Shown piece by piece: positions 4,004-21,785 of a stretch of DNA of 64,000 bases. The stretch covers positions 310,001 to 374,000 of the forward strand of contig NZ_CP033932.1 in NCBI RefSeq assembly GCF_003815975.1, written 5' to 3'. Origin of the DNA: Chryseobacterium bernardetii. GTDB taxonomy: Bacteria > Bacteroidota > Bacteroidia > Flavobacteriales > Weeksellaceae. Every line of letters starts with the position of its first letter. The first letter of the stretch is position 1. A program made the position numbers and the translations under genes. The notes beneath the pieces were generated by a model. That model was not told where the DNA came from. It searched no databases and worked only from the letters and a program-made list of their open reading frames with translations.

Positions 4004-4423
4004 ATGAAAAATATTGAAGAGAAACTTTTAAAAAAAAACACCAACCCTACCAGTATGCGGATTTTGGTGTATGACTTTTTGGAAGAACAACAGATAGCGA
4101 TGTCATTATCTGAAATAGAAAGCCATTTTTATAAAGCAGATAGAATTACTATTTATAGAACTCTGAAAACTTTCGAGGAAAAAGGTATTGTACATAGTAT
4201 TCAAGACAATAACACAAGTAAATATATCTTATGTGACGATGGGTGCGATGAGAAAACTCATAAAGATTGGCATCTGCACTTCTACTGTAAAATTTGTAAA
4301 CAGACAACCTGTAAAGAAGATTTTACAATACCACAGGAAAGGAATTATGAATTTAGAATTGACGAGATAAAACTATTTGGTAAGGGTATTTGCGAGAAGT
4401 GCTTAAAGGAGAGTTTGCAATAG
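4004..4423 (+). CDS. Fur-family metal-responsive transcriptional regulator
   Basis: A 139-aa Fur/Zur-like repressor. The N-terminal winged helix is visible (TSMRILVYDFLEEQ, then DRITIYRTLKTFEEKGIVH as recognition region). The C-terminal dimerisation half has the metal-ligand run HLHFYCKICKQTTC (about residues 90-103) and a terminal CEKC pair, the usual structural Zn site. It lies between the efflux adaptor and the P-type ATPase, so control of this metal operon is the natural guess; whether it senses Zn, Fe or another metal cannot be read from sequence. A hairpin with TGCAAT/ATTGCA arms spans its stop codon. Confidence 0.9.
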   Translation: MKNIEEKLLKKNTNPTSMRILVYDFLEEQQIAMSLSEIESHFYKADRITIYRTLKTFEEKGIVHSIQDNNTSKYILCDDGCDEKTHKDWHLHFYCKICKQTTCKEDFTIPQERNYEFRIDEIKLFGKGICEKCLKESLQ

Positions 4424-9621: not shown

Positions 9622-10905
9622 ATGATAGCGAAAATCGGCAGAAGCGGAAATTTATACGGAGCATTGGCTTACAATCAGCTCAAAGTTGAGAATGAAAACG
9701 GAAAAATTTTGTTTGCCAATAAAATGATTGAAACCAATGGTCATTATTCCGTTGCACAATTAGCCCAATCTTTTGCCCCTTATCTGATAGCCAATCGCAA
9801 TACGGAGAAACATACATTGCATATTTCACTCAATCCCAATCCAAAAGACAAGGTAAGTGATGACAGTTTCAGGGAAATGGCGGAAGAATACATGCGGGAA
9901 ATGGGTTACGGCGAACAGCCTTTTGTGGTATTCAAACATACCGATATTGACCGTAGCCATATTCATATTGTATCGGTTTGCGTAGACGAAGAGGGTAAAA
10001 AAATCTCTGACAAGTTTGAAAAAATGCGGTCGATGAATATTTGCCGAGAACTCGAAAAAAAACATGAATTGATACCTGCAACGGATAAAGAACACAAACA
10101 GAACGACAAAATTTTTAAACCTGTGGACTACAAAGCAGGTGATGTAAAAAGTCAAATAGCTTCAGTTATTCGCCATTTGCCAAACTATTATAAATTCCAA
10201 ACTTTAGGTGAATACAACGCCTTGCTTTCCCTGTTCAATGTTACCACCGAAAAAGTGGAGGGCGAATTGCAGGGAAAAATGCGGCAGGGTTTATTATACA
10301 TTCCCTTAAATGAGAAAGGCGAAAGAGCTGGACATCCATTCAAGGCTTCGTTGTTTGGTAAAAATGCAGGACTTCCGGCTTTGGAATTACATTTTGAAAA
10401 ATGCAAAGAGGCTTTAAAAGACCACCCAACCAAACCAATCATTAAAGCTGCCGTTACCGTTGCCCTACAATCCACAAACAATGAACAGGTTTTTAAAAAG
10501 CAGTTGAGTGAACAGGGCATTAATGTAGTAGTGCGTAGAAATGACACAGGGCGTATTTACGGAATAACTTTTATAGACCACAATTCTAAAACGGTTTGGA
10601 ACGGTTCACGCTTGGCAAAGGAACTTTCCGCCAACACCTTTAATGATTATTGGAACAATAATATCAAACCGGAGATTAAAGAACGGGACGTATTACAATC
10701 CAAACAATCCATATCAAATGATGCGGATCTTCAGCCGGAAGAACCACATCAATTGTTCGACTTCTTAAATAATAATGAAAAACACGAAGATGGTTTGATT
10801 GAAGCATTAGGTGGTTTGTTGCCCGAAGTACAGGGTGAAGATTACGAAGAACAGGATTTTGAAAATCGAATGAAGAGAAAGAAAAGAATTAATAAGAAAA
10901 GGTAA
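9622..10905 (+). CDS. mobB: MobB relaxase (MobP-type, HUH nuclease)
   Basis: A 427-aa relaxase that nicks oriT and stays covalently attached to the transferred strand. The N-terminal nuclease domain (about residues 1-150) has the HUH metal site in HTDIDRSHIHIVS (about residues 107-119) and an earlier HTLHISLNP strand. A conserved helical region follows (YKFQTLGEYNALLSLF). The tail is Lys/Arg-rich. It is the second gene of mobAB. In related elements the coupling gene mobC comes next, but here about 8.8 kb of cargo intervenes. Which residue attacks DNA cannot be fixed by eye; an N-terminal Tyr is the usual nucleophile. Confidence 0.9.
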   Translation: MIAKIGRSGNLYGALAYNQLKVENENGKILFANKMIETNGHYSVAQLAQSFAPYLIANRNTEKHTLHISLNPNPKDKVSDDSFREMAEEYMREMGYGEQPFVVFKHTDIDRSHIHIVSVCVDEEGKKISDKFEKMRSMNICRELEKKHELIPATDKEHKQNDKIFKPVDYKAGDVKSQIASVIRHLPNYYKFQTLGEYNALLSLFNVTTEKVEGELQGKMRQGLLYIPLNEKGERAGHPFKASLFGKNAGLPALELHFEKCKEALKDHPTKPIIKAAVTVALQSTNNEQVFKKQLSEQGINVVVRRNDTGRIYGITFIDHNSKTVWNGSRLAKELSANTFNDYWNNNIKPEIKERDVLQSKQSISNDADLQPEEPHQLFDFLNNNEKHEDGLIEALGGLLPEVQGEDYEEQDFENRMKRKKRINKKR

Positions 10906-11881: not shown

Positions 11882-12892
11882 CTAGTCTATTTTTTTCTTT
11901 TTGCGTTTTGGGCGTTCCATTCTGCATCTGATAAATTCCGGTATAAAACAAATTAGAAGGTGTTCGCGTTTCCAACGGTAACATTTTTGAAAAAAGAACA
12001 TTGCCACAAATAGAAATGCACCCGCCCCAACGGCCACCTGAAAAGGATACGATAGTATATTATCTTGTGGAATAATCATTGGAACAAGGGCAATGGCACA
12101 AGCTGGTGCAAATGGTTTTTTGATTATTTCAAAAAGTAGAAAAAGGCATAGAAACAGCAAGAGTACAACATATAACTGAGGAAAACCCAATACCGCATGC
12201 AGGTAATATTGAAGGAGTGTTCCCAGGATTGCAGCAATTAAGACGACTGAATAAACCTGTAATGGACGATTTCTAAAACCGGAAGAAGAAGAACTAAATT
12301 CTACAAACATGACTACTAATGGAGGTACTATAATATATACTTTTCCGATAGCTATTGGAATTACAGCTATGAGTATTAGCCAAAAGAGCAATCTAATAAA
12401 ATGTTTTGGATTGTGTTTGTAACGCCCTTTTTTTGCATCGAATACAATAACGGTACGTAAGGAATTTTTCTCAAGAAGCCATTGTCCACAAACGACTAGA
12501 AGACTCATGACGAAAACAGAAATTGGGTAAACTAATGAATCAGTTCCTAATAGAACAGGTAACATTGTAGCTGATGTTATGGGTATTAACGAAGTGCGTG
12601 TTATGATAAGACAAATCGAAGTAAACGCAAATGAAATTATAATATTTACCAATAATGGAAACTCTGAATAACGGACAAGCAAGATTCCGAACAAGGCGCA
12701 AGCCGTCATTAACAGCACAAGCATTGGTCTGCTAATCGTCCATACTTTTTTATCAATAACCCATAAACCAAGTACCAAGGCAGCCATCTCGGGAAACAAA
12801 ATTTCTTTTTCACCAAGCCATTCAGAAACACCAACCATCAAGACAATCATGATAAGGGCAAAAAAGTATCGGATTAACTTGTGCTTATTCAT
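11882..12892 (-). CDS. Polytopic membrane protein of unknown function
   Basis: A 336-aa integral membrane protein with roughly ten hydrophobic helices in two similar halves. A loop around residues 150-165 is basic (FDAKKGRYKHNPKH) and the C-terminus is strongly basic (RPKRKKKKID), so it probably faces the cytoplasm. The halves share small motifs: FPEMAALVLGLWV near the N-terminus and FAPACAIALVPMIIP near the C-terminus, suggesting internal duplication as in HPP- or FUSC-like proteins. I cannot name the family. Its start overlaps the end of the DUF417 gene by 8 bases, so the two are translationally coupled. Transport or stress function is inference from that pairing. Confidence 0.75.
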   Translation of the reverse strand: MNKHKLIRYFFALIMIVLMVGVSEWLGEKEILFPEMAALVLGLWVIDKKVWTISRPMLVLLMTACALFGILLVRYSEFPLLVNIIISFAFTSICLIITRTSLIPITSATMLPVLLGTDSLVYPISVFVMSLLVVCGQWLLEKNSLRTVIVFDAKKGRYKHNPKHFIRLLFWLILIAVIPIAIGKVYIIVPPLVVMFVEFSSSSSGFRNRPLQVYSVVLIAAILGTLLQYYLHAVLGFPQLYVVLLLFLCLFLLFEIIKKPFAPACAIALVPMIIPQDNILSYPFQVAVGAGAFLFVAMFFFQKCYRWKREHLLICFIPEFIRCRMERPKRKKKKID

Positions 12893-13460
12893 TTGTTTTA
12901 TTTTTCAAAAGGTTTTTAGCATTGTCAGAAGCTATAAGTAAACCTCCAGCCATCATAATTATATCTTTTATGACCAAACGACCAGCTGCTGACAGATAAG
13001 GAAAACCGTAATGAGGTGTTGGCACGTCACCACCTAAATTAGGAACCCAGGTTTCAGCAGTAGTAATTAAAAAAGTTAGTGTGACTAAAGACATAATTGC
13101 TGTGAGTAATCCGCCAATTATCCCTAAACGATTGTTAAAAATACCCAATAAGGTTAGTGAACCAATAATTATAATGATAGTTCCTAATGCATATGAAAAA
13201 ATATAAGTTCCATTTCGTTTATGCCATTCGATATTTTTTTGAACCATTTCACCTTCTTTATTCTTATGGTCTTTGTATTGCTCTGGATTGTTGTAAAAGA
13301 AGCTCATTAGTGGACTATTGGCAACAAAAGGCACAATTCCATCAGCTTCATATTGAAAAGCTTTAAGTCCGCCAATCCATACCATCACAATGAAAATGGC
13401 AATTCGCATAAAGTTGAAAAATTGACTCTGTAATTTGGCTAATCTTACTAAAATGTTCAT
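12885..13460 (-). CDS. DUF417 (RclC/YkgB-like) inner-membrane protein
   Basis: A 191-aa membrane protein with about four helices. MVWIGGLKAFQYEADGIVPFVANSPLMSFFY is the hallmark N-terminal region of the family (split here by eye), followed by GIIGGLLTAIMSLVTLTFL and a loop PHYGFPYLSAAGRLVIKD before the last helix. E. coli RclC belongs to this family and helps survival of reactive chlorine species; that function is borrowed. It is first in a two-gene operon with the membrane protein at 11882. Its promoter is well formed (13487-13525) and the AraC gene lies just upstream in the same direction. Confidence 0.88.
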   Translation of the reverse strand: MNILVRLAKLQSQFFNFMRIAIFIVMVWIGGLKAFQYEADGIVPFVANSPLMSFFYNNPEQYKDHKNKEGEMVQKNIEWHKRNGTYIFSYALGTIIIIIGSLTLLGIFNNRLGIIGGLLTAIMSLVTLTFLITTAETWVPNLGGDVPTPHYGFPYLSAAGRLVIKDIIMMAGGLLIASDNAKNLLKNKTNE

Positions 13461-13483
13461 CTGTTTTGTATTTAAATGATTCC

Positions 13484-13546
13484 AGACAAAATTACTGTCA
13501 CTTTATTTTGCTTGCAATAGACAAAAGTGGCTATTCCCTAGACAAA
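13484..13546 (-). promoter_or_regulatory. DUF417 operon promoter with AraC-type direct repeats
   Basis: On the reverse strand the -7 box TAATTTTG (13494-13487) and the -33 box ATTG (13518-13515) are separated by 20 bases, the Bacteroidetes consensus arrangement. TTTGTCTA occurs at 13525-13518, abutting the -33 box, and again 21 bases further upstream (13546-13539); a third TTTGTCT overlaps the -7 box. Two direct half-sites two helical turns apart next to -33 are the classic AraC-activator layout. The AraC gene ends within this region. Confidence 0.6.
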
Positions 13547-14382
13547 TCTGCTACAATGGATATTCCAACATTTTCTCGAAAAGCAGTTGGTGTAATTCCA
13601 GTATGTTTTTTAAAATAACGACTAAAATAATTTTCGTCGTCAAAATGTAACTCAGCAGCAATTTCTTTAATGCTTTTATAGGTAAGGTGAATGAGTTTTT
13701 TGGATTCCAATATAACTCTTTCGTGAATAAGTGTAGATGGTGTTTTAAAAAACTGCTGTTTGCAGATTTTGGAAAAATTATTAGGTGAAATTCCCATTTG
13801 GGCAGCATAAAAAGAAGGTTGTCTTTCGTTACGAAAATTATTTTCCAGCAATATTTTAAAATTCATCAATGGATGATAACTATTCTTTTCTTCCTTTATG
13901 ATTGTGTCGTTTGATTTTATTTTACTACACAAAGCAAGAATCAATTGTAAATAAGCCTTTACTACTGCTGTAGAACAGTTGCTACTGTTTTGTATTTCGA
14001 TAATTAATTTTTCTAAAATAGTATCTATTTCAATATAATCCGATGTCTCAAGATTGATATAGGGTTGTTGGTAGATGTTATTAAATAGTAAACCATTACA
14101 AGCTACTTCTTTTTTATGGTATTCTATGCAGTAGAAATCACCATGAAATTGAAGTCTTTTTGTTTTAAGAGGCTGTTCGGTATTGAAATTAATAATTTGA
14201 TAGGGAGTAGCAAATAATATGATGCTACCATCAAAAGCATATTCTACTAAGTCAACCCTTACTTTTCCGTTTCCTTCTAAAAGAAAAATATTGTACAGGA
14301 GTGAACCTTCCGATTGATTAATATAATCGGTATTACAAATCTGGACTTTACAGCCATTTTGGTTTGTTTGTTTTTCTTTCAT
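13531..14382 (-). CDS. AraC-family transcriptional regulator
   Basis: A 283-aa regulator starting at the ATG at 14382; a longer frame to 14451 exists but its extra residues look non-coding. The N-terminal ~160 residues form a cupin-like sensor (FHGDFYCIEYHKKEVACNGLLFNN). The C-terminal double HTH runs from FYAAQMGISPNNFSKICKQQF to IKEIAAELHFDDENYFSRYFKKHTGITPTAFR. The sensor region is clearly similar to that of the AraC protein at 27121 (HDKELTCDGILFNN), so the two are paralogues. Direct repeats overlapping its 3' end suggest it drives the DUF417 operon downstream. Confidence 0.9.
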   Translation of the reverse strand: MKEKQTNQNGCKVQICNTDYINQSEGSLLYNIFLLEGNGKVRVDLVEYAFDGSIILFATPYQIINFNTEQPLKTKRLQFHGDFYCIEYHKKEVACNGLLFNNIYQQPYINLETSDYIEIDTILEKLIIEIQNSSNCSTAVVKAYLQLILALCSKIKSNDTIIKEEKNSYHPLMNFKILLENNFRNERQPSFYAAQMGISPNNFSKICKQQFFKTPSTLIHERVILESKKLIHLTYKSIKEIAAELHFDDENYFSRYFKKHTGITPTAFRENVGISIVADLSRE

Positions 14383-14468
14383 TAGGCAGTGTAACTTATA
14401 CAAGATCTGTATAGATTGTATTCGAAAATATTGCTTACACCTGTAGTGCATTATAAAAAAAAAATGCT

Positions 14469-14761: not shown

Positions 14762-14829
14762 TTGATCTAGGTCAATATTTTTTATTGATTAAGGTTTTCA
14801 TTCCAATACACAATTATTCCAGAAATTTG
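14762..14829 (+). promoter_or_regulatory. Crp/Fnr-type compound site 1 and VOC promoter
   Basis: TTGATCTAGGTCAA at 14762-14775 fits TTGAT-N4-ATCAA with one change. With the following bases it forms TCAAT-N7-ATTGA (14772-14788). A -7-like GAAATTTG ends at 14829, its TTTG 64 bases from the start of the box, exactly as at site 2. It lies upstream of the VOC gene. Confidence 0.6.
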
Positions 14830-14954
14830 TATAGTAATCTTTAGTCATATATATTTTCAAAAGAACGTAATATGACTAACTAGTATTTTGTGATTATTAA
14901 CAATATAGAGTAAGGTTTAGCTCTATTATAATTTTAACTTTTAAAATAAGTATT

Positions 14955-15329
14955 ATGAAAATCAATCAAGTTGGATGGTTTGAGTTTGGTTCAGACCAAC
15001 CGGAAAAAGTAAAAGAGTTTTACAAGAAAATGTTTGGCTGGGAATTTTTGAAAAATCCAGATTTGGAAAGTCAAGGATATAAATATGATGGTATTCTTGA
15101 ACCGGGAAATGAAGTTCCTACCGGCGGACTAATGCATACCGAAGGTAAAATGCCTGAATATGCTGTTTTTTATATATTTGTCGAGGATGCTGAAAAAGAA
15201 ATAAAACGAGCACAGGAAAATGGCGGGCAACTAGTATGGGGACCAGTAACAGATGATTCTAATATTACTTTTGCACGTTTAAAAGACAATTTAGGCCATC
15301 AATTTGGCGTTTTTTCTGTTAAGAAATAA
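14955..15329 (+). CDS. VOC-superfamily (glyoxalase/bleomycin-resistance fold) protein
   Basis: A 124-aa single-domain VOC protein made of two beta-alpha-beta-beta-beta modules. Signs are the opening GWFEFGSDQPEKVKEFYKKMFGWEF, the strand AVFYIFVEDAEKEIKRAQENGG and the closing LKDNLGHQFGVFSVKK. VOC proteins bind a metal and act on small electrophiles or drugs; the substrate is not predictable. It lies downstream of a Crp/Fnr-type box and ahead of the Crp/Fnr gene, separated from it by a strong terminator. A second VOC protein (18336) is in the same cargo block. Confidence 0.88.
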   Translation: MKINQVGWFEFGSDQPEKVKEFYKKMFGWEFLKNPDLESQGYKYDGILEPGNEVPTGGLMHTEGKMPEYAVFYIFVEDAEKEIKRAQENGGQLVWGPVTDDSNITFARLKDNLGHQFGVFSVKK

Positions 15330-15350
15330 TATTTTATCCTGATTATCCAA

Positions 15351-15380
15351 AACCTGCCTTTTAAATGGCAGGTTTTTTTT
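15351..15380 (+). terminator. Rho-independent terminator after VOC gene
   Basis: Perfect arms AACCTGCC (15351-15358) and GGCAGGTT (15367-15374) with an 8-base loop, followed by an uninterrupted T-run to 15380. Confidence 0.85.
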
Positions 15381-15481
15381 TACAATAACTTTGAAAATCA
15401 ACATTCCCGATATCATAGAATACAATATTACACGTTATTTTGTACATTTATGGAAGTTTTAATACTTTGATTTTTTAGCAT

Positions 15482-16096
15482 ATGTATCAGGAAATACAAG
15501 ATAAATTTACAGTAATGATTGATTTCTTTAATTCAATTATTCCCTTGAAACAAGAAGAAAAAGAATTGATCCGCCAATATTTTTATTTGCGTTCCTATAA
15601 GAAACGTATGTTTGTACTTCAGGAAGGAGATGTTTGCCAGCATCTCAATTTTGTTCTTTCCGGTTGTCTGCGGATGTATAAAGATGATGAAAATGGTAAT
15701 CCGCATATCCTGCTTTTTGCGACTGAAGGCTCCTGGATAAATGATTTGGACAGCTACTACGAACAAAAAAAATCATTGCTGAATATTGATGTTTTGGAAA
15801 ATGCAGAATTGCTGCAAATTAGTAGAGAGGATATTGTAAAACTATATCTCGCTGCGCCAAAGTTTGATAGAATTTTTAGAATTCTCACCGAGCGAAACCT
15901 TGTCATTCTGCAAAACAGAATGCTTGAAAATATTAGTTTATCAGCTGAAGAACGCTACTATAATTTACTTTCCAGTCACCCCGATCTTTTCAATAGAATA
16001 CCTCAAGTGCATATTGCATCCTACCTTGGCGTATCAGCCGAGTTTATAAGTCGCTTAAGAAGCCGAAGGGCTAGAAATCCATTGATGGGAAATTGA
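15482..16096 (+). CDS. Crp/Fnr-family transcriptional regulator
   Basis: A 204-aa regulator. The N-terminal cyclic-nucleotide-binding-like barrel spans about residues 20-130 (KKRMFVLQEGDVCQHLNFVLSGCLRMY). The long dimer helix follows, then the winged HTH (VHIASYLGVSAEFISRLRSRRA, about residues 176-197). The sole Cys residues in the sensor (Cys44, Cys55) are not the four-Cys cluster of E. coli FNR, so oxygen sensing by an Fe-S cluster is not evident. A perfect TTGAT-N4-ATCAA site begins 3 bases before its stop codon, with related sites upstream of the neighbouring VOC and alcohol-dehydrogenase genes, so it probably controls its own neighbourhood. Confidence 0.9.
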   Translation: MYQEIQDKFTVMIDFFNSIIPLKQEEKELIRQYFYLRSYKKRMFVLQEGDVCQHLNFVLSGCLRMYKDDENGNPHILLFATEGSWINDLDSYYEQKKSLLNIDVLENAELLQISREDIVKLYLAAPKFDRIFRILTERNLVILQNRMLENISLSAEERYYNLLSSHPDLFNRIPQVHIASYLGVSAEFISRLRSRRARNPLMGN

Positions 16097-16160
16097 TCTT
16101 GATCAATAATATTTATTGATTTTGTTCTGGTAAGTATAATCAGCCTTGTCTGTAAATTTG
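16093..16160 (+). promoter_or_regulatory. Crp/Fnr-type compound site 2 and DUF5131 promoter
   Basis: TTGATCTTGATCAA (16093-16106) is an exact TTGAT-N4-ATCAA box. It continues as TCAAT-N7-ATTGA to 16119. The consensus -7 box TAAATTTG lies at 16153-16160, its TTTG 64 bases from the box start, 27 bases before the DUF5131 start codon. Confidence 0.65.
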
Positions 16161-16186
16161 CATAGTAAAGTAAATATCATTTTATT

Positions 16187-16894
16187 ATGGAAATTGTTAA
16201 TATAAGTAAACTAATAAAAACCCTTAATCCTGTAAATGGATGTAGAGCGGGTTGCGTATATTGTTATGCACGAAAAATTAACAATAGGTTCAAAATTACG
16301 CCTGATTTTGAAATTCCTGAGTTTAGTCCGCATCGCTTGAAACAGATCAAACAAACCCAGAAGTCCCAAACCTACTTCATGACAAGCATGAGTGATTTCT
16401 CTGATTGGCAAGAAGAGTGGAGAACAATTGTTTTTGATTATATCAAAGATTTCCCACAGCACAATTTTATATTTCTTACAAAATTCCCAGAGCGCATTCA
16501 TTTCCATACCGACCTTGAAAATGTATGGATCGGTGCCACCATTACGGCAAAGAATGAAAAACGAAGGATTGATTCTTTGAGAAATAATATCAAAGCAAGA
16601 AATTATTTTCTCACATTCGAGCCACTACTGAATGATCTTGGAGAGCTTAATCTACAAGATATTAAATGGATTGTAATCGGATCTGAAACTGGGAACAGAA
16701 AAGGCAAGGTTACTGTTAAAAGAGAATGGGTAAACAATATTATGAAACAGGTTAATAAGGAAAATGTCTCAGTCTTTATGAAAGACAGTCTCACTTCTAT
16801 TGTTAATTCAGATGATATGCGACAAGAATTACCCTTTATTGATATGGGTAAAAATAAAGAAGAAGAACATCAGATTTCATTTAATTTCAAATAG
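16187..16894 (+). CDS. DUF5131 family radical-SAM-like protein
   Basis: A 235-aa member of the DUF5131 (phage gp37/gp68-like) family. NGCRAGCVYCYA gives a C-x3-C-x2-C motif at about residues 19-26, the radical-SAM 4Fe-4S ligand pattern. Further conserved pieces are TYFMTSMSDFSDWQEEW, NFIFLTKFPERI, WIGATITAKNEKRRID and WIVIGSETG. The family resembles TIM-barrel radical SAM enzymes but no reaction is assigned. It sits under a Crp/Fnr-type site and promoter, so redox or cofactor-linked regulation with the next gene is plausible. Confidence 0.85.
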   Translation: MEIVNISKLIKTLNPVNGCRAGCVYCYARKINNRFKITPDFEIPEFSPHRLKQIKQTQKSQTYFMTSMSDFSDWQEEWRTIVFDYIKDFPQHNFIFLTKFPERIHFHTDLENVWIGATITAKNEKRRIDSLRNNIKARNYFLTFEPLLNDLGELNLQDIKWIVIGSETGNRKGKVTVKREWVNNIMKQVNKENVSVFMKDSLTSIVNSDDMRQELPFIDMGKNKEEEHQISFNFK

Positions 16895-16920
16895 CCAAAA
16901 GCAAAATACCACACCTAATA

Positions 16921-16976
16921 TTGACATGGATCAATATTAGATATTGATCCATGTCAAGCCCAAATAATAAAATTTG
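16921..16976 (+). promoter_or_regulatory. Crp/Fnr-type site 3: perfect 17-bp palindrome before alcohol dehydrogenase
   Basis: Arms TTGACATGGATCAATAT and its exact complement flank TAG (16921-16957). Each arm holds a TTGAY-N4-RTCAA box, so the palindrome is two facing boxes. Read from the left it fits TTGAY-N4-RTCAAT-N7-ATTGA like sites 1 and 2. AAAATTTG ends at 16976. No T-run follows, arguing against a terminator. Confidence 0.65.
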
Positions 16977-17050
16977 TTCATAATTTACAATACATTAAAC
17001 TATTAGTATTTAGAATCATTTTACTGACCTAAATTGATTTTTATCTTCGG

Positions 17051-17064
17051 TTGATGATGATCAA
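17051..17064 (+). promoter_or_regulatory. Crp/Fnr-type site 4
   Basis: TTGATGATGATCAA is an exact TTGAT-N4-ATCAA box ending 33 bases before the alcohol dehydrogenase start. It lacks the downstream ATTGA half seen at sites 1-3, so it may act as a proximal (repressing) site. Confidence 0.5.
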
Positions 17065-17097: not shown

Positions 17098-18213
17098 ATG
17101 GAAATAACAGCAGCTCTTATCAGAGAAAAAGGTGGGAAATTCGGATTAGAAAAAGTCATGATCGGTGAGCCACGTGCTGACGAAGTATTGGTGAAAATCA
17201 TAGCTACAGGAACATGTCATACAGATATGGCTGTAAGAGACCAGCAGATGGGACCAACTGGTTTCCCTTTTATCTTGGGCCACGAGGGTGCAGGAATTGT
17301 GGAGAAAGTAGGAGAAAATGTAAAAAATCTGCAGCCAGGAGATCATGTTGTACTTACCTTCGGGTCATGTGGAGAATGTGAGAACTGTAAAAAAGGTAAT
17401 CCTGCATATTGTGAAAATCTGATGGGAATGAATTTTTCCGGTTGCCGTTTAGATGGAACACACAGCCACTCTAGTCATTTGAAAGACGAAGAAATACATG
17501 ACAATTTTTTCTCGCAGTCGTCTTTTGCGACTTACTCCATATCGCACAAAAGCAATACCATAAAGGTTAGTAAAGATGCGCCGTTGGAAATCTTAGGTCC
17601 TTTGGGATGCGGAGTTCAGACCGGAGCCGGAGCTGTCATCAATTCTCTTAAAGTTAAGCCTGGTAAGTCAATTGTTATCACTGGCGCTGGCGCAGTCGGA
17701 TTATCCGCATTATTGGCTGCAGTTGCCTCTTCGGCAGGAACAATCGTTGCAGTGGACATCAATAGTGAAAGATTGGATTTTGCAAAAGAATTAGGGGCTA
17801 CACATGTTATCAATAGTAAAGATCAGGATGTCGAAGAAGAATTAAGAAAAATTTTACCTAAAGGATTCGATTACGGACTTGATACTACTGGACGTAATGA
17901 GGTTATTAATACTATATTGTCTTCCTTAAAACCTTTTGGTGAAATAGGCATTTTAGGAGTGGCAACAAAACCGCTTGAAATAGAAATGAATTCTTTTGTA
18001 TCAAGAGGTATAAAACTTAAAGGAATAGTAGAGGGCGACAGTGTCCCTTCAGAATTTATTCCACAGATGGTCAATATGTATCTTCTTGGACAATTTCCCT
18101 TTGATAAATTGATAAAAAAATATAGTTTTCAGGATATTAACCAGGCTATTTCAGATTCCGAAAGTGGCAAGACGATAAAGCCTGTTATTCTCATTGGGGA
18201 TTTTGAAAAATAG
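17098..18213 (+). CDS. Zinc-dependent alcohol dehydrogenase (medium-chain, aryl-alcohol type)
   Basis: A 371-aa medium-chain NAD-dependent dehydrogenase oxidising a primary or aromatic alcohol to the aldehyde. Catalytic zinc ligands are Cys40 (CHTD), His62-Glu63 (GHEGAG) and the Cys of GPLGCGVQTGAG. Structural zinc is bound by the CGECENCKKGNPAYC cluster. The Rossmann motif is GAGAVG with AVDIN after beta-2, whose Asp favours NAD over NADP. GCGVQTGAG and length fit the AreB/XylB benzyl-alcohol dehydrogenase group. Two Crp/Fnr-type sites precede it. The actual substrate is unknown. Confidence 0.9.
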   Translation: MEITAALIREKGGKFGLEKVMIGEPRADEVLVKIIATGTCHTDMAVRDQQMGPTGFPFILGHEGAGIVEKVGENVKNLQPGDHVVLTFGSCGECENCKKGNPAYCENLMGMNFSGCRLDGTHSHSSHLKDEEIHDNFFSQSSFATYSISHKSNTIKVSKDAPLEILGPLGCGVQTGAGAVINSLKVKPGKSIVITGAGAVGLSALLAAVASSAGTIVAVDINSERLDFAKELGATHVINSKDQDVEEELRKILPKGFDYGLDTTGRNEVINTILSSLKPFGEIGILGVATKPLEIEMNSFVSRGIKLKGIVEGDSVPSEFIPQMVNMYLLGQFPFDKLIKKYSFQDINQAISDSESGKTIKPVILIGDFEK

Positions 18214-18335: not shown

Positions 18336-18716
18336 ATGAAAACAAAAAGAAATATTGGCGGCTGGTTTGAGATTTATGTAGAAGATATGCAGAGGGCAAT
18401 GGATTTTTACCTGTATGTTTTCGATGATGTAAACTTCATCGACCTTTCAAAAGGCGACAGTCAAATGCAGATGTTTGAATGGGAAGATCACTTATCTGGA
18501 GCGGGGGGTGCATTGGTAAAGATGAAGTTCAATAAACCCTCACCAAATGGAACCATTATCTATTTCAGCTGTGATGACTGTGCTGTCCAGGAAGCCAGAG
18601 CCCGCGAAAAGGGTGTGGAGATCGTAGCTCCTAAAACGCAACTTCCGCATTTTGGTTTTTCAGCCCTCTTGAGAGATAGTGAAAATAATACGATCGGGTT
18701 ATACTCACTTAAATAG
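18336..18716 (+). CDS. VOC-superfamily protein
   Basis: A 126-aa VOC protein (GGWFEIYVEDMQRAMDFYLYVF at the start, then FGFSALLRDSENNTIGLYSLK at the end), distantly paralogous to the one at 14955. It has the compact two-module form common in Bacteroidetes; substrate unknown. It follows the alcohol dehydrogenase and lies 35 bases before an MBL-fold hydrolase, probably in one transcript with it. Confidence 0.87.
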   Translation: MKTKRNIGGWFEIYVEDMQRAMDFYLYVFDDVNFIDLSKGDSQMQMFEWEDHLSGAGGALVKMKFNKPSPNGTIIYFSCDDCAVQEARAREKGVEIVAPKTQLPHFGFSALLRDSENNTIGLYSLK

Positions 18717-18751: not shown

Positions 18752-19516
18752 ATGAAACTACAACAAATCAGGAATGCAACTATGGTTGTTAATTATGGAG
18801 GTAAAAAATTTTTAATTGATCCAATGTTGGCGGATAAAGGTACATTACCTGCATTTCCGAATCCGGCAAGTGGCGATGAGCGTAATAATCCGCTAGTTGA
18901 ACTTCCAGTATCAATAGATGAACTGGTAAAAGATCTTGATGCAATTTTTTTAAGCCACCTGCATTATGACCATTACGATGATGCGGCAAAGAAATTTCTG
19001 CCCAAGCATGTAAAAATTTATGTTCAGGATGATGCTGATAAAAAAGAAGTGGAGTCTTCCGGTTTTACAAATGTCGAAGTACTAACTGATGGGACAGAAA
19101 TTGATGGGATTCAATTATTTCAGACTCAGGCTCAGCACGGATTTGGCGAAACATTAAAATTAGCAGGAAATGTTCATGGATTTGTTATGAAGCATGTCTC
19201 AGAAAAAACATTGTACTTTATTACAGATTCAGTTTGGTATGAAGGGGTACATCAAGAATTAAATAAACACAAACCCGATATTGTTGTCGTTAATGGCGGT
19301 GACAACCAGTTCGTTGGAGGCGGTCAGCTGATTATGGGCAAGGAAGAGATTAAAAAGGTCCATGAGACTGCTCCAAATGCAACTTTAGTGGTAAGCCATA
19401 TGGAGGGTGTAAACCATAATACCTTATCACGAAAAGAATTGAAGCAGTTTCTTCTAGATGAGAGCATCTCTGGTAAGGTAATGGTTCCTGATGATGGACA
19501 ACAATATGAGTTTTAG
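18752..19516 (+). CDS. MBL-fold metallo-hydrolase (UlaG-like)
   Basis: A 254-aa metallo-beta-lactamase-fold hydrolase. The zinc motif HxHxDH is SHLHYDHYD (about residues 69-77); further ligands are in TQAQHGFGE, TDSVWYEG and SHMEGVNHNT. The opening MKLQQIRNATMVVNYGGKKFLIDPML is typical of UlaG-like proteins (shown split: MKLQQIRNAT, then LIDPML). UlaG is an ascorbate-6-phosphate lactonase, but this subgroup's substrate is unknown. A close paralogue of identical length is at 24470 in the other cargo block. Confidence 0.9.
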   Translation: MKLQQIRNATMVVNYGGKKFLIDPMLADKGTLPAFPNPASGDERNNPLVELPVSIDELVKDLDAIFLSHLHYDHYDDAAKKFLPKHVKIYVQDDADKKEVESSGFTNVEVLTDGTEIDGIQLFQTQAQHGFGETLKLAGNVHGFVMKHVSEKTLYFITDSVWYEGVHQELNKHKPDIVVVNGGDNQFVGGGQLIMGKEEIKKVHETAPNATLVVSHMEGVNHNTLSRKELKQFLLDESISGKVMVPDDGQQYEF

Positions 19517-19787: not shown

Positions 19788-21785
19788 ATGCAGGGAGAAG
19801 ACGATTTAAGAGGGCTTGCCAAAATAATGGCATTTATGCGCGCCGTCAGTATTCTATTGTTGCTGATGCACCTTTATTGGTTTTGCTACGGTTTCTTTGT
19901 AGAACGTGGATGGACGTTGGAAGTAATCAACAGAATTTTAGGAAATTTCAACAGAACGGCGGGTTTATTTTCACATACTTTTTATACCAAAGCGTTTGCT
20001 TTGGTTTTGCTTGCTTTGAGTTGTTTGGGAACGAAAGGCGTAAAGAATGAGAAGATAACCTGGTCTAAAATTTACGTGGTTTTGGGCGTTGGCTTTGTCC
20101 TGTTCTTTCTGAACACACCGTTGTTAAAGCTATCACCGGTAATAGGCACATTTCTGTATATTCTTACTATCTCGTTAGGTTATATCGCCTTGCTGATGGC
20201 TGGCGTATGGATGAGCAGATTGCTCCGTACCAACCTGATGGATGATGTTTTCAATAATGAGAACGAGAGTTTCCAGCAGGAAACCAAGCTGATGGAAAAC
20301 GAGTATTCCGTCAATCTTCCCACGAAGTTTTATTACAAAGGCAAATGGAATAACGGTTGGATCAACATTGTCAATCCTTTCAGGGCATCAATCGTTCTCG
20401 GCACTCCTGGTTCAGGAAAATCGTATGCAATCGTTAATAATTACATCAAGCAGCAGATTGAAAAAGGTTTCTCAATGTACATCTACGATTTCAAATTTGA
20501 CGACCTTTCTACCATTGCCTATAATCACTTACTGAAGCATCGGGATAAGTACGAAGTTCAACCCAAATTTTACGTGATAAATTTCGATGATCCACGCAAG
20601 AGCCACCGTTGCAATCCACTCAATCCCGATTTTATGACGGACATTTCCGATGCTTACGAAGCGGCTTACACCATAATGCTGAACCTCAACCGTAGCTGGA
20701 TACAGAAGCAAGGTGATTTTTTCGTGGAAAGCCCAATTATCCTATTGGCTGCCATTATTTGGTATCTGAAAATCTATGAGGACGGTAAATATTGTACATT
20801 CCCTCACGCCATTGAATTGCTGAATAAAAAGTATTCGGACGTATTTACCATTCTGACCTCATATCCCGATTTGGAAAACTATCTTTCTCCGTTTATGGAT
20901 GCTTGGCAAGGTGGCGCACAAGACCAATTGCAGGGACAGATTGCATCGGCAAAAATTCCTTTGTCAAGAATGATTAGCCCGCAGTTGTATTGGGTTATGA
21001 CTGGTGATGACTTTACGCTCGACATCAATAACCCCAAAGAGCCTAAAATTTTGTGCGTTGGGAATAATCCCGACCGTCAAAATATCTACTCCGCAGCTTT
21101 GGGATTGTACAATTCAAGGATTGTAAAGCTCATCAACAAAAAAGGGCAATTAAAGAGTTCAGTAATTATAGATGAGCTACCGACAATTTATTTTAGAGGA
21201 CTGGACAACCTTATCGCAACTGCGAGAAGTAACAAGGTGGCAGTTTGTTTGGGTTTTCAGGATTTTTCGCAATTAACAAGGGATTATGGCGACAAGGAAA
21301 GTAAGGTAATTCAGAATACCGTTGGTAATATTTTCTCTGGGCAGGTCGTTGGCGAAACGGCAAAAAGCCTTTCGGAACGTTTCGGGAAAGTATTGCAGAA
21401 ACGCCAAAGTATGACGATTAACAGGAATGATAAATCTACCTCTATCTCCACACAGTTAGACAGCCTTATTCCGGCTTCTAAAATTTCAACGCTTACACAA
21501 GGTATGTTTGTCGGTTCTGTATCGGATAACTTTGACGAACGTATTGAGCAAAAAATATTTCACGCTGAAATTGTTGTGGACAATGAAAAAGTTGCCGCAG
21601 AAACTAAAGTATATCAGAAGATACCGGAAATTTTATCTTTTGTAGATGAACACGGAGAAGATAAAATGAAGCAGGATATTGAAAGCAACTACCGCCAAAT
21701 AAAACAAGATATTGTACAGATTATAGCATCGGAATTGGAGCGTATCAAGAATGACCCAAACTTACGGCATTTGGTACAGGGGTAA
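19788..21785 (+). CDS. mobC: MobC/TraG-type conjugative coupling ATPase (VirD4 family)
   Basis: A 665-aa type IV coupling protein that brings the relaxase-DNA complex to the mating channel. The N-terminal ~150 residues contain about four membrane helices. Walker A is GTPGSGKS (about residues 205-212). Walker B is SVIIDELPTIYF (about 459-470), followed by the TraG-type LIATARSNKVAVCLGFQDFSQL segment. In Bacteroidetes elements mobC directly follows mobAB; here it is 8.9 kb away with cargo between. Its own upstream region carries an element-wide operator candidate, so it may be expressed independently. Confidence 0.93.
   Translation: MQGEDDLRGLAKIMAFMRAVSILLLLMHLYWFCYGFFVERGWTLEVINRILGNFNRTAGLFSHTFYTKAFALVLLALSCLGTKGVKNEKITWSKIYVVLGVGFVLFFLNTPLLKLSPVIGTFLYILTISLGYIALLMAGVWMSRLLRTNLMDDVFNNENESFQQETKLMENEYSVNLPTKFYYKGKWNNGWINIVNPFRASIVLGTPGSGKSYAIVNNYIKQQIEKGFSMYIYDFKFDDLSTIAYNHLLKHRDKYEVQPKFYVINFDDPRKSHRCNPLNPDFMTDISDAYEAAYTIMLNLNRSWIQKQGDFFVESPIILLAAIIWYLKIYEDGKYCTFPHAIELLNKKYSDVFTILTSYPDLENYLSPFMDAWQGGAQDQLQGQIASAKIPLSRMISPQLYWVMTGDDFTLDINNPKEPKILCVGNNPDRQNIYSAALGLYNSRIVKLINKKGQLKSSVIIDELPTIYFRGLDNLIATARSNKVAVCLGFQDFSQLTRDYGDKESKVIQNTVGNIFSGQVVGETAKSLSERFGKVLQKRQSMTINRNDKSTSISTQLDSLIPASKISTLTQGMFVGSVSDNFDERIEQKIFHAEIVVDNEKVAAETKVYQKIPEILSFVDEHGEDKMKQDIESNYRQIKQDIVQIIASELERIKNDPNLRHLVQG

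Follow-up and report, generated by a model that had tools for sequence, protein, structure and literature searches.

Within a 64,000-nt stretch of the Chryseobacterium bernardetii genome (GCF_003815975.1, NZ_CP033932.1, positions 310,001–374,000, forward strand; hereafter the window), a gene for a Crp/Fnr-family regulator (crp) is accompanied by three copies of a compound DNA site. Sequence comparison indicates that this site is a genuine tandem operator: it is strongly conserved, belongs with a Crp/Fnr subfamily of the Bacteroidota and has been multiplied on a mobile element. We propose that the operator is very probably bound by the adjacent regulator. Our best explanation as a whole, held with moderate confidence, is that two dimers of this regulator would sit on the tandem boxes and activate these promoters. 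An earlier, sequence-only reading had described a compound operator, TTGAY-N4-RTCAAT followed at exactly 7 bases by ATTGA, and had tied it to the local Crp/Fnr regulator; that tie and the fixed spacing are supported here.

Pattern matching confirmed the three exact compound sites of that reading on the plus strand, at 14762, 16093 and 16921, and gave no match in 100 dinucleotide shuffles. One additional minus-strand match (16957–16931) reflects the inverted-repeat structure of site 3. The added ATTGA, previously taken as a lone half-site, proved instead to open a second, degenerate box, TTRAnnnAGnTYAT, whose left arm it forms: at each site the sequence beyond the 7-base gap starts another box (TTGATTAAGGTTTT, TTGATTTTGTTCTG and TTGATCCATGTCAA), with a start-to-start distance of 23 bp in 3/3. 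Judged by its letters, the compound element is two tandem FNR-like boxes with starts 23 bp apart, of which the second is weaker. The strong upstream dyad reads TTGAYCTRGRTCAA in the window and TTRAWCYAGRTCAA in distant loci.

All window features given here lie on the plus strand. Operator 1 comprises an upstream box with the exact pattern (TTGATCTAGGTCAA, 14762–14775) and, 23 bp from it, a downstream degenerate box (14785–14798) that fits most of the box-2 pattern of the distant loci. The upstream box of operator 2 (TTGATCTTGATCAA, 16093–16106) has the exact pattern, is conserved and overlaps the crp stop codon; its downstream degenerate box (16116–16129) is conserved as well. Operator 3 has an exact and conserved upstream box (TTGACATGGATCAA, 16921–16934) and a complete downstream box with the exact box pattern (16944–16957), which lies in an inverted-repeat arm. 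This fifth box had been overlooked in the earlier inventory of four sites, and it makes site 3 two full boxes: a perfect 17-bp inverted repeat with arms at 16921–16937 and 16941–16957.

The compound site is confined to this locus within its own genome. Across the 5.32 Mb contig, TTGAY-N4-RTCAA-N9-TTGA had four matches with zero mismatches, all at the window places, and no exact compound site was found outside the window locus. With one mismatch allowed, the whole genome gave 12 matches and a reversed control pattern 14; these matches are noise, because the control gives as many. For the plain box TTGAY-N4-RTCAA, the 5.32 Mb contain 32 copies, compared with 15 for the reversed control, and 5/32 lie within the 2.3 kb locus. 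TTRA at +23 is missing, on both strands, from all of the other 27 plain boxes, and a host-wide regulon of the compound site was rejected.

A single protein-only database scan with the regulator gave 86 relatives, of which 80 were retained (43–92% identity), making 81 loci with the window. Three are close island relatives, from Chryseobacterium balustinum (L016), Sphingobacterium puteale (L017) and Flavobacterium anhuiense (L018), with regulators 90–92% identical; beyond these, identity to the window regulator falls to 57% and below. Box 1 was taken as the best match in the interval that opens 30 bp ahead of the crp stop and closes 200 bp beyond it, with at least 12 of 14 consensus positions, so its score is a selected one. 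It was present in 78/81 loci, window included, and in 79/81 once an interrupted gene was allowed for in L039. The same kind of search, over 230 positions, succeeded in 3/78 cases upstream of crp and in 0/61 in far DNA. In 79/81 loci, the paired operator is located at the crp 3′ end or beyond it.

TTRA stands at exactly +23 from box 1 in 71/81 loci. In a profile of 74 distant rows (window, L016–L018, L039, L087 and L088 left out), 67 have it at +23, and it occurs at none of the remaining offsets between 14 and 45. Column conservation, computed from 80 of the 81 rows with L039 left out, was strong in most of box 1, in the TTTC-TTRA and TCAT of box 2 and in a downstream TTTG. The left half of box 1 is TTRA throughout and the right half mostly RTCAA, and the leading A of box 2 is C in site 2 of L016–L018 and in 77/80 aligned rows. 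Offsets 41–60, from the operator to the –7 box, are near random (∼0.2 bits per column). As information drops there and climbs again at TTTG, the conservation is not general similarity. The architecture recurs at more distant loci and is not peculiar to this one, and the proposed check on orthologous loci found the second element with its spacing conserved in close and distant loci alike.

Scans with DNA patterns of the operator alone, using neither protein nor –7 box, gave 10 sites in 9/197 family genomes and 13 sites in 12/296 phylum genomes, 23 in total. Strict operator patterns are thus uncommon, and the source genome itself has no match to them. A Crp-like gene adjoins 20/23 of these sites (10/10 in the family set and 10/13 in the phylum set), and TTTG stands at +64 in 18/23. 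Three sites (L141, L152 and L160) are identical over 74 nt to loci already found by protein; the other 20/23 are not. One phylum genome (G384) has three operators, two of them with the same unusual inner bases, as expected if one regulator has several targets. At L153, L154 and L162 (in G384 and G442), the boxes are near-perfect reverse complements forming 14-bp inverted repeats, more so than at most loci.

The operator also stands at a fixed distance from a promoter-like element. The distance from box 1 to the start of TTTG is exactly 64 bp in 69/81 loci; five loci have 63 and two have 62 (80 rows), and by eye L039 also has 64. At offsets 40–57, TTTG occupies 14/1458 positions, nine of the 14 at 53. 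In the window, the distance of 64 reported earlier for sites 1 and 2 is correct and corresponds to a candidate –7 box GAAATTTG (14822–14829) and a –7 box TAAATTTG (16153–16160), respectively. Box 2 ends in TTG (offsets 36–38) in 65/81 loci, 21 bp before offset 60; such a position suits a –33 element, which could be the reason for the degeneracy of box 2. In Flavobacterium psychrophilum, the TAnnTTTG –7 box lies at –12 to –5, according to the available text of PMC9723704; on this basis, the centres of boxes 1 and 2 would fall at about –65.5 and –42.5, respectively. With the start site inferred in this way, the estimated centres would be near the class I and class II Crp positions, –61.5 and –41.5 in the part of PMC5957442 available. 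The arrangement would match a tandem class I plus class II promoter: two sites, the nearer overlapping the –35/–33 region, at a fixed distance, with the start site estimated.

Taken together, we suggest that the neighbouring Crp/Fnr-family protein would bind as two dimers on about one DNA face, one on the strong box 1 (∼–65.5) and a second on the weaker box 2 (∼–42.5), which ends in the –33 TTG in most loci. The regulator would then activate a weak sigma-A type promoter, with its TTTG 64 bp from box 1, like combined class I and class II Crp/Fnr promoters. Given binding, activation rather than repression is probable. In the distant loci, the operator is usually found at the crp 3′ end, ahead of an F420-oxidoreductase-like gene; on the mobile element it stands before three units.

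Several observations weigh against this explanation. The case is comparative, resting on sequence, spacing, conservation and association with the regulator family, and sequence leaves activation versus repression undecided. The full TAnnTTTG with TTTG at 64 occurs in only 7/81 loci (A at 61 in 65/81), although an incomplete –7 would fit promoters that need an activator. Of the nine loci with TTTG at 53, all have it besides one at 64. The –33 TTG is absent in window operator 2, L016 and L017, where box 1 is a full TTGAY...RTCAA, and operator 1 is conserved in L016 only, one independent relative (upstream box at 4300 there). Two loci (L087 and L088) keep the regulator with a partial box 1 and no box 2. 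Three of the 23 pattern-found sites have no adjoining Crp-like gene: L156, with one ∼3 kb off; L162, with two ∼9.5 and 14 kb off on the same contig; and L154, with none found within 12 kb. Conversely, the operator is absent from the stretch of DNA available around one G384 Crp-like gene, the one in G378 and the five in G442 (L178, L175, L174, L177 and L179–L181).

Base pairing was assessed on 99 unique operators from 107 rows (L039, L087 and L088 left out), with relatedness of the rows uncorrected, and it gave further unfavourable points. Pairing inside box 1 was 0.733 compared with 0.729 in shuffles, i.e. no covariation, and inside box 2 it was lower than in shuffles (0.548 compared with 0.581; z –3.5). 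Since within-box covariation is absent, the dyad of box 2 is drawn from the consensus. Box-to-box pairing slightly exceeded column shuffles (0.688 compared with 0.671; z 3.4, before any correction for relatedness), an excess for which we would offer no explanation beyond two palindromes pairing with each other. The rarity of the full TAnnTTTG and the missing covariation inside box 2 lowered our confidence in the two-dimer activation model.

One alternative has the same protein on the same two boxes as a repressor, with box 2 lying over the –33 element and blocking RNA polymerase until a signal arrives. The –33 TTG at the end of box 2 in 65/81 loci speaks for this, and the targets (oxidoreductases, pirin, VOC and SnoaL) could suit a repressor relieved by stress. 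However, activators have their positions at –61.5 and –41.5 (PMC5957442, in the part available), not far from the conserved strong box near –65 and the weaker one near –42, and the rarity of the full TAnnTTTG (7/81), together with loss of the –33 TTG in most mobile copies, fits promoters that need help. We regard repression as unlikely. A different host Crp/Fnr protein could also be the real binder, since the genome holds 29 Crp-like matches including the window's own, FNR-like boxes share a consensus and the E-xx-SR recognition helix is common to FNR. This is improbable: 20/23 pattern-found sites adjoin this subfamily or its near relatives, the tandem shape with TTTG was found at 0/14 of the paralogue loci scanned (of 28 other matches), and exact compound sites occur nowhere else in the genome.

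An RNA element at the crp 3′ end (a hairpin, terminator or attenuator in which box 1 pairs with box 2) would draw on the perfect repeat of site 3, the near-perfect 14-bp inverted repeats in G384 and G442 and the box-to-box pairing excess described above. Against it, two successive palindromes pair mutually by construction, and the outer columns are conserved yet do not pair: among the 99 operators, columns 0/36 are T-T in 91 and columns 2/34 are A-C in 59. Furthermore, a constant 64 bp to TTTG is the geometry of a promoter, crp is not adjacent at three sites, no part of the window scored at an Rfam gathering threshold and site 3 has no T run after it. An RNA hairpin was rejected as the general explanation on the 99 unique operators, and we consider it very improbable. 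Chance or recent duplication without function is hardly credible: the three window sites could be mutual copies, but 0 matches in 100 shuffles and conservation in 79/81 loci, with near-random DNA between operator and –7, already contradict it.

The regulator (15482–16096), the putative cognate binder, belongs to the Crp/Fnr superfamily: PF00027 matched at 1.2e-12, and the predicted model shows a Crp-like fold with C-terminal helices and a confidence (predicted local distance difference test, pLDDT) of 91.3. No Pfam helix-turn-helix family was found for it at E 0.001. Among the best 50 Foldseek matches to the model were CRP and FNR (E 6.7e-13 to 2.1e-10), and the Cytophaga hutchinsonii structure PDB 3dn7 also matched. 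The recognition helix has E187 in 78/81 proteins, S190 in 78/81 and R191 in 69/81, which we take to be the counterparts of FNR E209, S212 and R213. These FNR-type residues are in keeping with the TTRA/TTGA half-site, and E-xx-S-R together with a TTGAT-N4-ATCAA dyad would, at the level of sequence, predict FNR-type DNA specificity.

FNR carries four cluster cysteines, three of them near the N-terminus, for [4Fe-4S] oxygen sensing. No such four-cysteine set is conserved among the 81 proteins, so the regulator is not an FNR oxygen sensor. Only Cys52 (80/81) and Cys62 (81/81) are conserved, and 52/81 proteins have just two cysteines. CRP has a phosphate-binding Arg-Ser in its cyclic AMP (cAMP) pocket; aligned by eye to that place, residue 97 is P in 60/81 and K in the window. 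Tentatively, the signal could be a reactive electrophile or thiol oxidant, which would be sensed through Cys52 and Cys62. Both cysteines are also present in the more distant 3dn7 alignment, which tells against this idea, and the pair may be structural rather than sensory. The source genome has 29 Crp-like matches, the window's own included, two of them with in-frame stops.

The gene next after crp is in most loci an F420-oxidoreductase-like NAD(P)-binding gene, a family identified as PF03807 on two members. Counted only where the gene begins on the crp strand and no more than 300 bp from crp, it was present in 58/80 loci; the looser count of any match in the locus gave 62/80. It lies farther on in L044, L056 and L068, far off on the other strand in L029, and is cut by the contig end in L054. 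Several of these loci continue with a 3-keto-disaccharide-hydrolase-like protein or DinB. Where the F420-like gene is missing, the next gene in the cases examined encodes a 3-keto-disaccharide-hydrolase-like protein (L025, L027, L028 and L033), a SnoaL-like protein (L058, L070 and L140), a zinc/quinone-type oxidoreductase (L094, L154 and L162), an alpha/beta hydrolase (L072) or pirin (L150 and L156).

In the mobile version, the operators precede three units, and Pfam bore out the gene names given earlier (VOC, Crp/Fnr, DUF5131 and alcohol dehydrogenase). The presumed target of operator 1 is a VOC/glyoxalase-superfamily protein (14955–15329; PF00903) and that of operator 2 a DUF5131 protein resembling radical SAM mobile pair protein A (16187–16894; PF07505; TIGR04471 at 260 bits, below its cut-off of 355). 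Operator 3 is followed by a zinc-dependent alcohol dehydrogenase (ADH; 17098–18213; PF08240 and PF00107), and a second VOC protein (18336–18716; PF00903) and an MBL-fold hydrolase (18752–19516; PF12706) are presumed to share its transcript. Taken with the genes that follow crp in the other loci, the VOC, ADH and radical SAM-like genes here suggest that the targets may handle reactive small molecules. For the DUF5131 protein, a scan of ten neighbouring proteins showed no radical SAM mobile pair partner, and the name "radical SAM mobile pair protein A" had no match in the open-access literature searched.

The close island relatives clarified the remaining window sites. Operator 2 is kept in L016, L017 and L018, with TTGAY and GTTC in the second box. 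Operator 3 is likewise kept in all three, with one position changed in the first box of L017 (TTAACCAGGATCAA); in L017, where ADH gave no match, the first matched gene after operator 3 is the second VOC gene. The Sphingobacterium copy has a shortened first VOC gene (L017 4549–4803), and operator 1 was not found in this copy. The distance of 52 reported for site 3 exists in the window; the inferred one-turn-shorter spacing is poorly conserved, with TTTG at 53 in L016 and none there in L017 and L018. Instead, a –7-like word is kept at offset 60–67, TAATTTAC in the window (16981–16988) and TAAWTTAG in L016–L018, and the one-helical-turn shift was set aside for this candidate degenerate –7 box at offset 64. 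Similarly, the fourth plain box (TTGATGATGATCAA, 17051–17064) is there in the window and not conserved in L016–L018: L016 has TTAATGATTATTAA at the aligned place, with larger differences in L017 and L018. It was rejected as an operator and is probably a chance match outside the system.

The regulator–operator block is probably cargo of a mobile element, because it is located between mobB (9622–10905; NF041325 at 643 bits, cut-off 400) and mobC (19788–21785; NF041326 at 1129 bits, cut-off 900), both well over their cut-offs. A profile search found these flanking conjugation genes above cut-off in the window and in L018. In L018, both genes are there but the regulator is placed after mobC; therefore, the exact insertion place differs from that in the window. 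Among plasmid records, 41 had a match, none covering 80% of the region and the best place covering 13%.

Known systems make this a variant of the two-site Crp/Fnr promoter. E. coli promoters with class I and class II Crp/FNR sites are alike in having two upstream sites, the nearer near –41.5 and overlapping the –35/–33 region and the farther near –61.5; the same source, PMC5957442, uses "class III", in its available text, for promoters with two Crp and a second factor. The differences here are a Bacteroidota –33/–7 promoter, a 23-bp spacing fixed across diverged loci and an operator usually at the regulator's 3′ end. A reference-list entry indicates that tandem CRP sites were reportedly the subject of Belyaeva 1998. 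FNR/DNR boxes (TTGATnnnnATCAA, a consensus taken from part of PMC1274295) have the same half-site and the same N4 spacing, and in Sphingopyxis granuli most Fnr boxes are centred at –40.5 to –42.5 (PMC7713065, available portion). Unlike these, the present operator has a second box and inner bases with a bias to CYAG, its half-site loosens to TTRA in distant loci, and its regulator lacks a conserved four-cysteine set. Local HcpR-type Crp/Fnr regulators are alike in placing the regulator gene beside one or few targets and in the comparative genomics used, as far as the available part of PMC1274295 describes them. Their HcpR2 motif GTAACnnnnGTTAC and target hcp, given in that same part of PMC1274295, were not seen here, and an HcpR identity was rejected as motif and targets differ.

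The closest solved relative by sequence is 3dn7, a cyclic nucleotide binding regulatory protein of C. hutchinsonii that ranked second in Foldseek with both cysteines aligned. It differs in comprising 146 residues in the Foldseek copy, mostly the N-terminal domain, and no function or DNA site came up for it. Neither a description of this operator or regulator nor a target or site for this Crp/Fnr subfamily appeared among the open-access literature matches listed, a coverage outside which most subscription papers fall. Among those matches, nothing describes the subfamily, its fixed architecture or the form with three operators on a mobile element.

Bacteroidota carry many Crp/Fnr proteins, as the 29 matches in this genome illustrate, and one of them now gains a candidate operator, promoter geometry and target. 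Its sharp footprint offers a way to test activator contacts with the unusual promoter of Bacteroidota. A mobile element with a regulator and several operator copies could allow a recipient to acquire a working regulon at once. More speculatively, and with no great confidence, the subfamily could be a Bacteroidota-wide thiol/electrophile Crp/Fnr switch with an obligatory two-dimer operator at its own 3′ end, which a mobile element multiplied into a portable three-promoter detoxification regulon.

Two further features of the element were observed. The divergent cargo at window 11882–14451 includes an RclC-like reactive chlorine resistance membrane protein (NF040476 at 277.5 bits, barely over the cut-off of 275), a 336-aa protein without a family match and an AraC-type regulator. 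Upstream of crp, TATTTTGT at window 15436–15443 is kept in 4/4 island copies. It resembles motif SM5 of F. psychrophilum, TAnnTTGY in the available text of PMC9723704, and crp may have its own promoter of this type.

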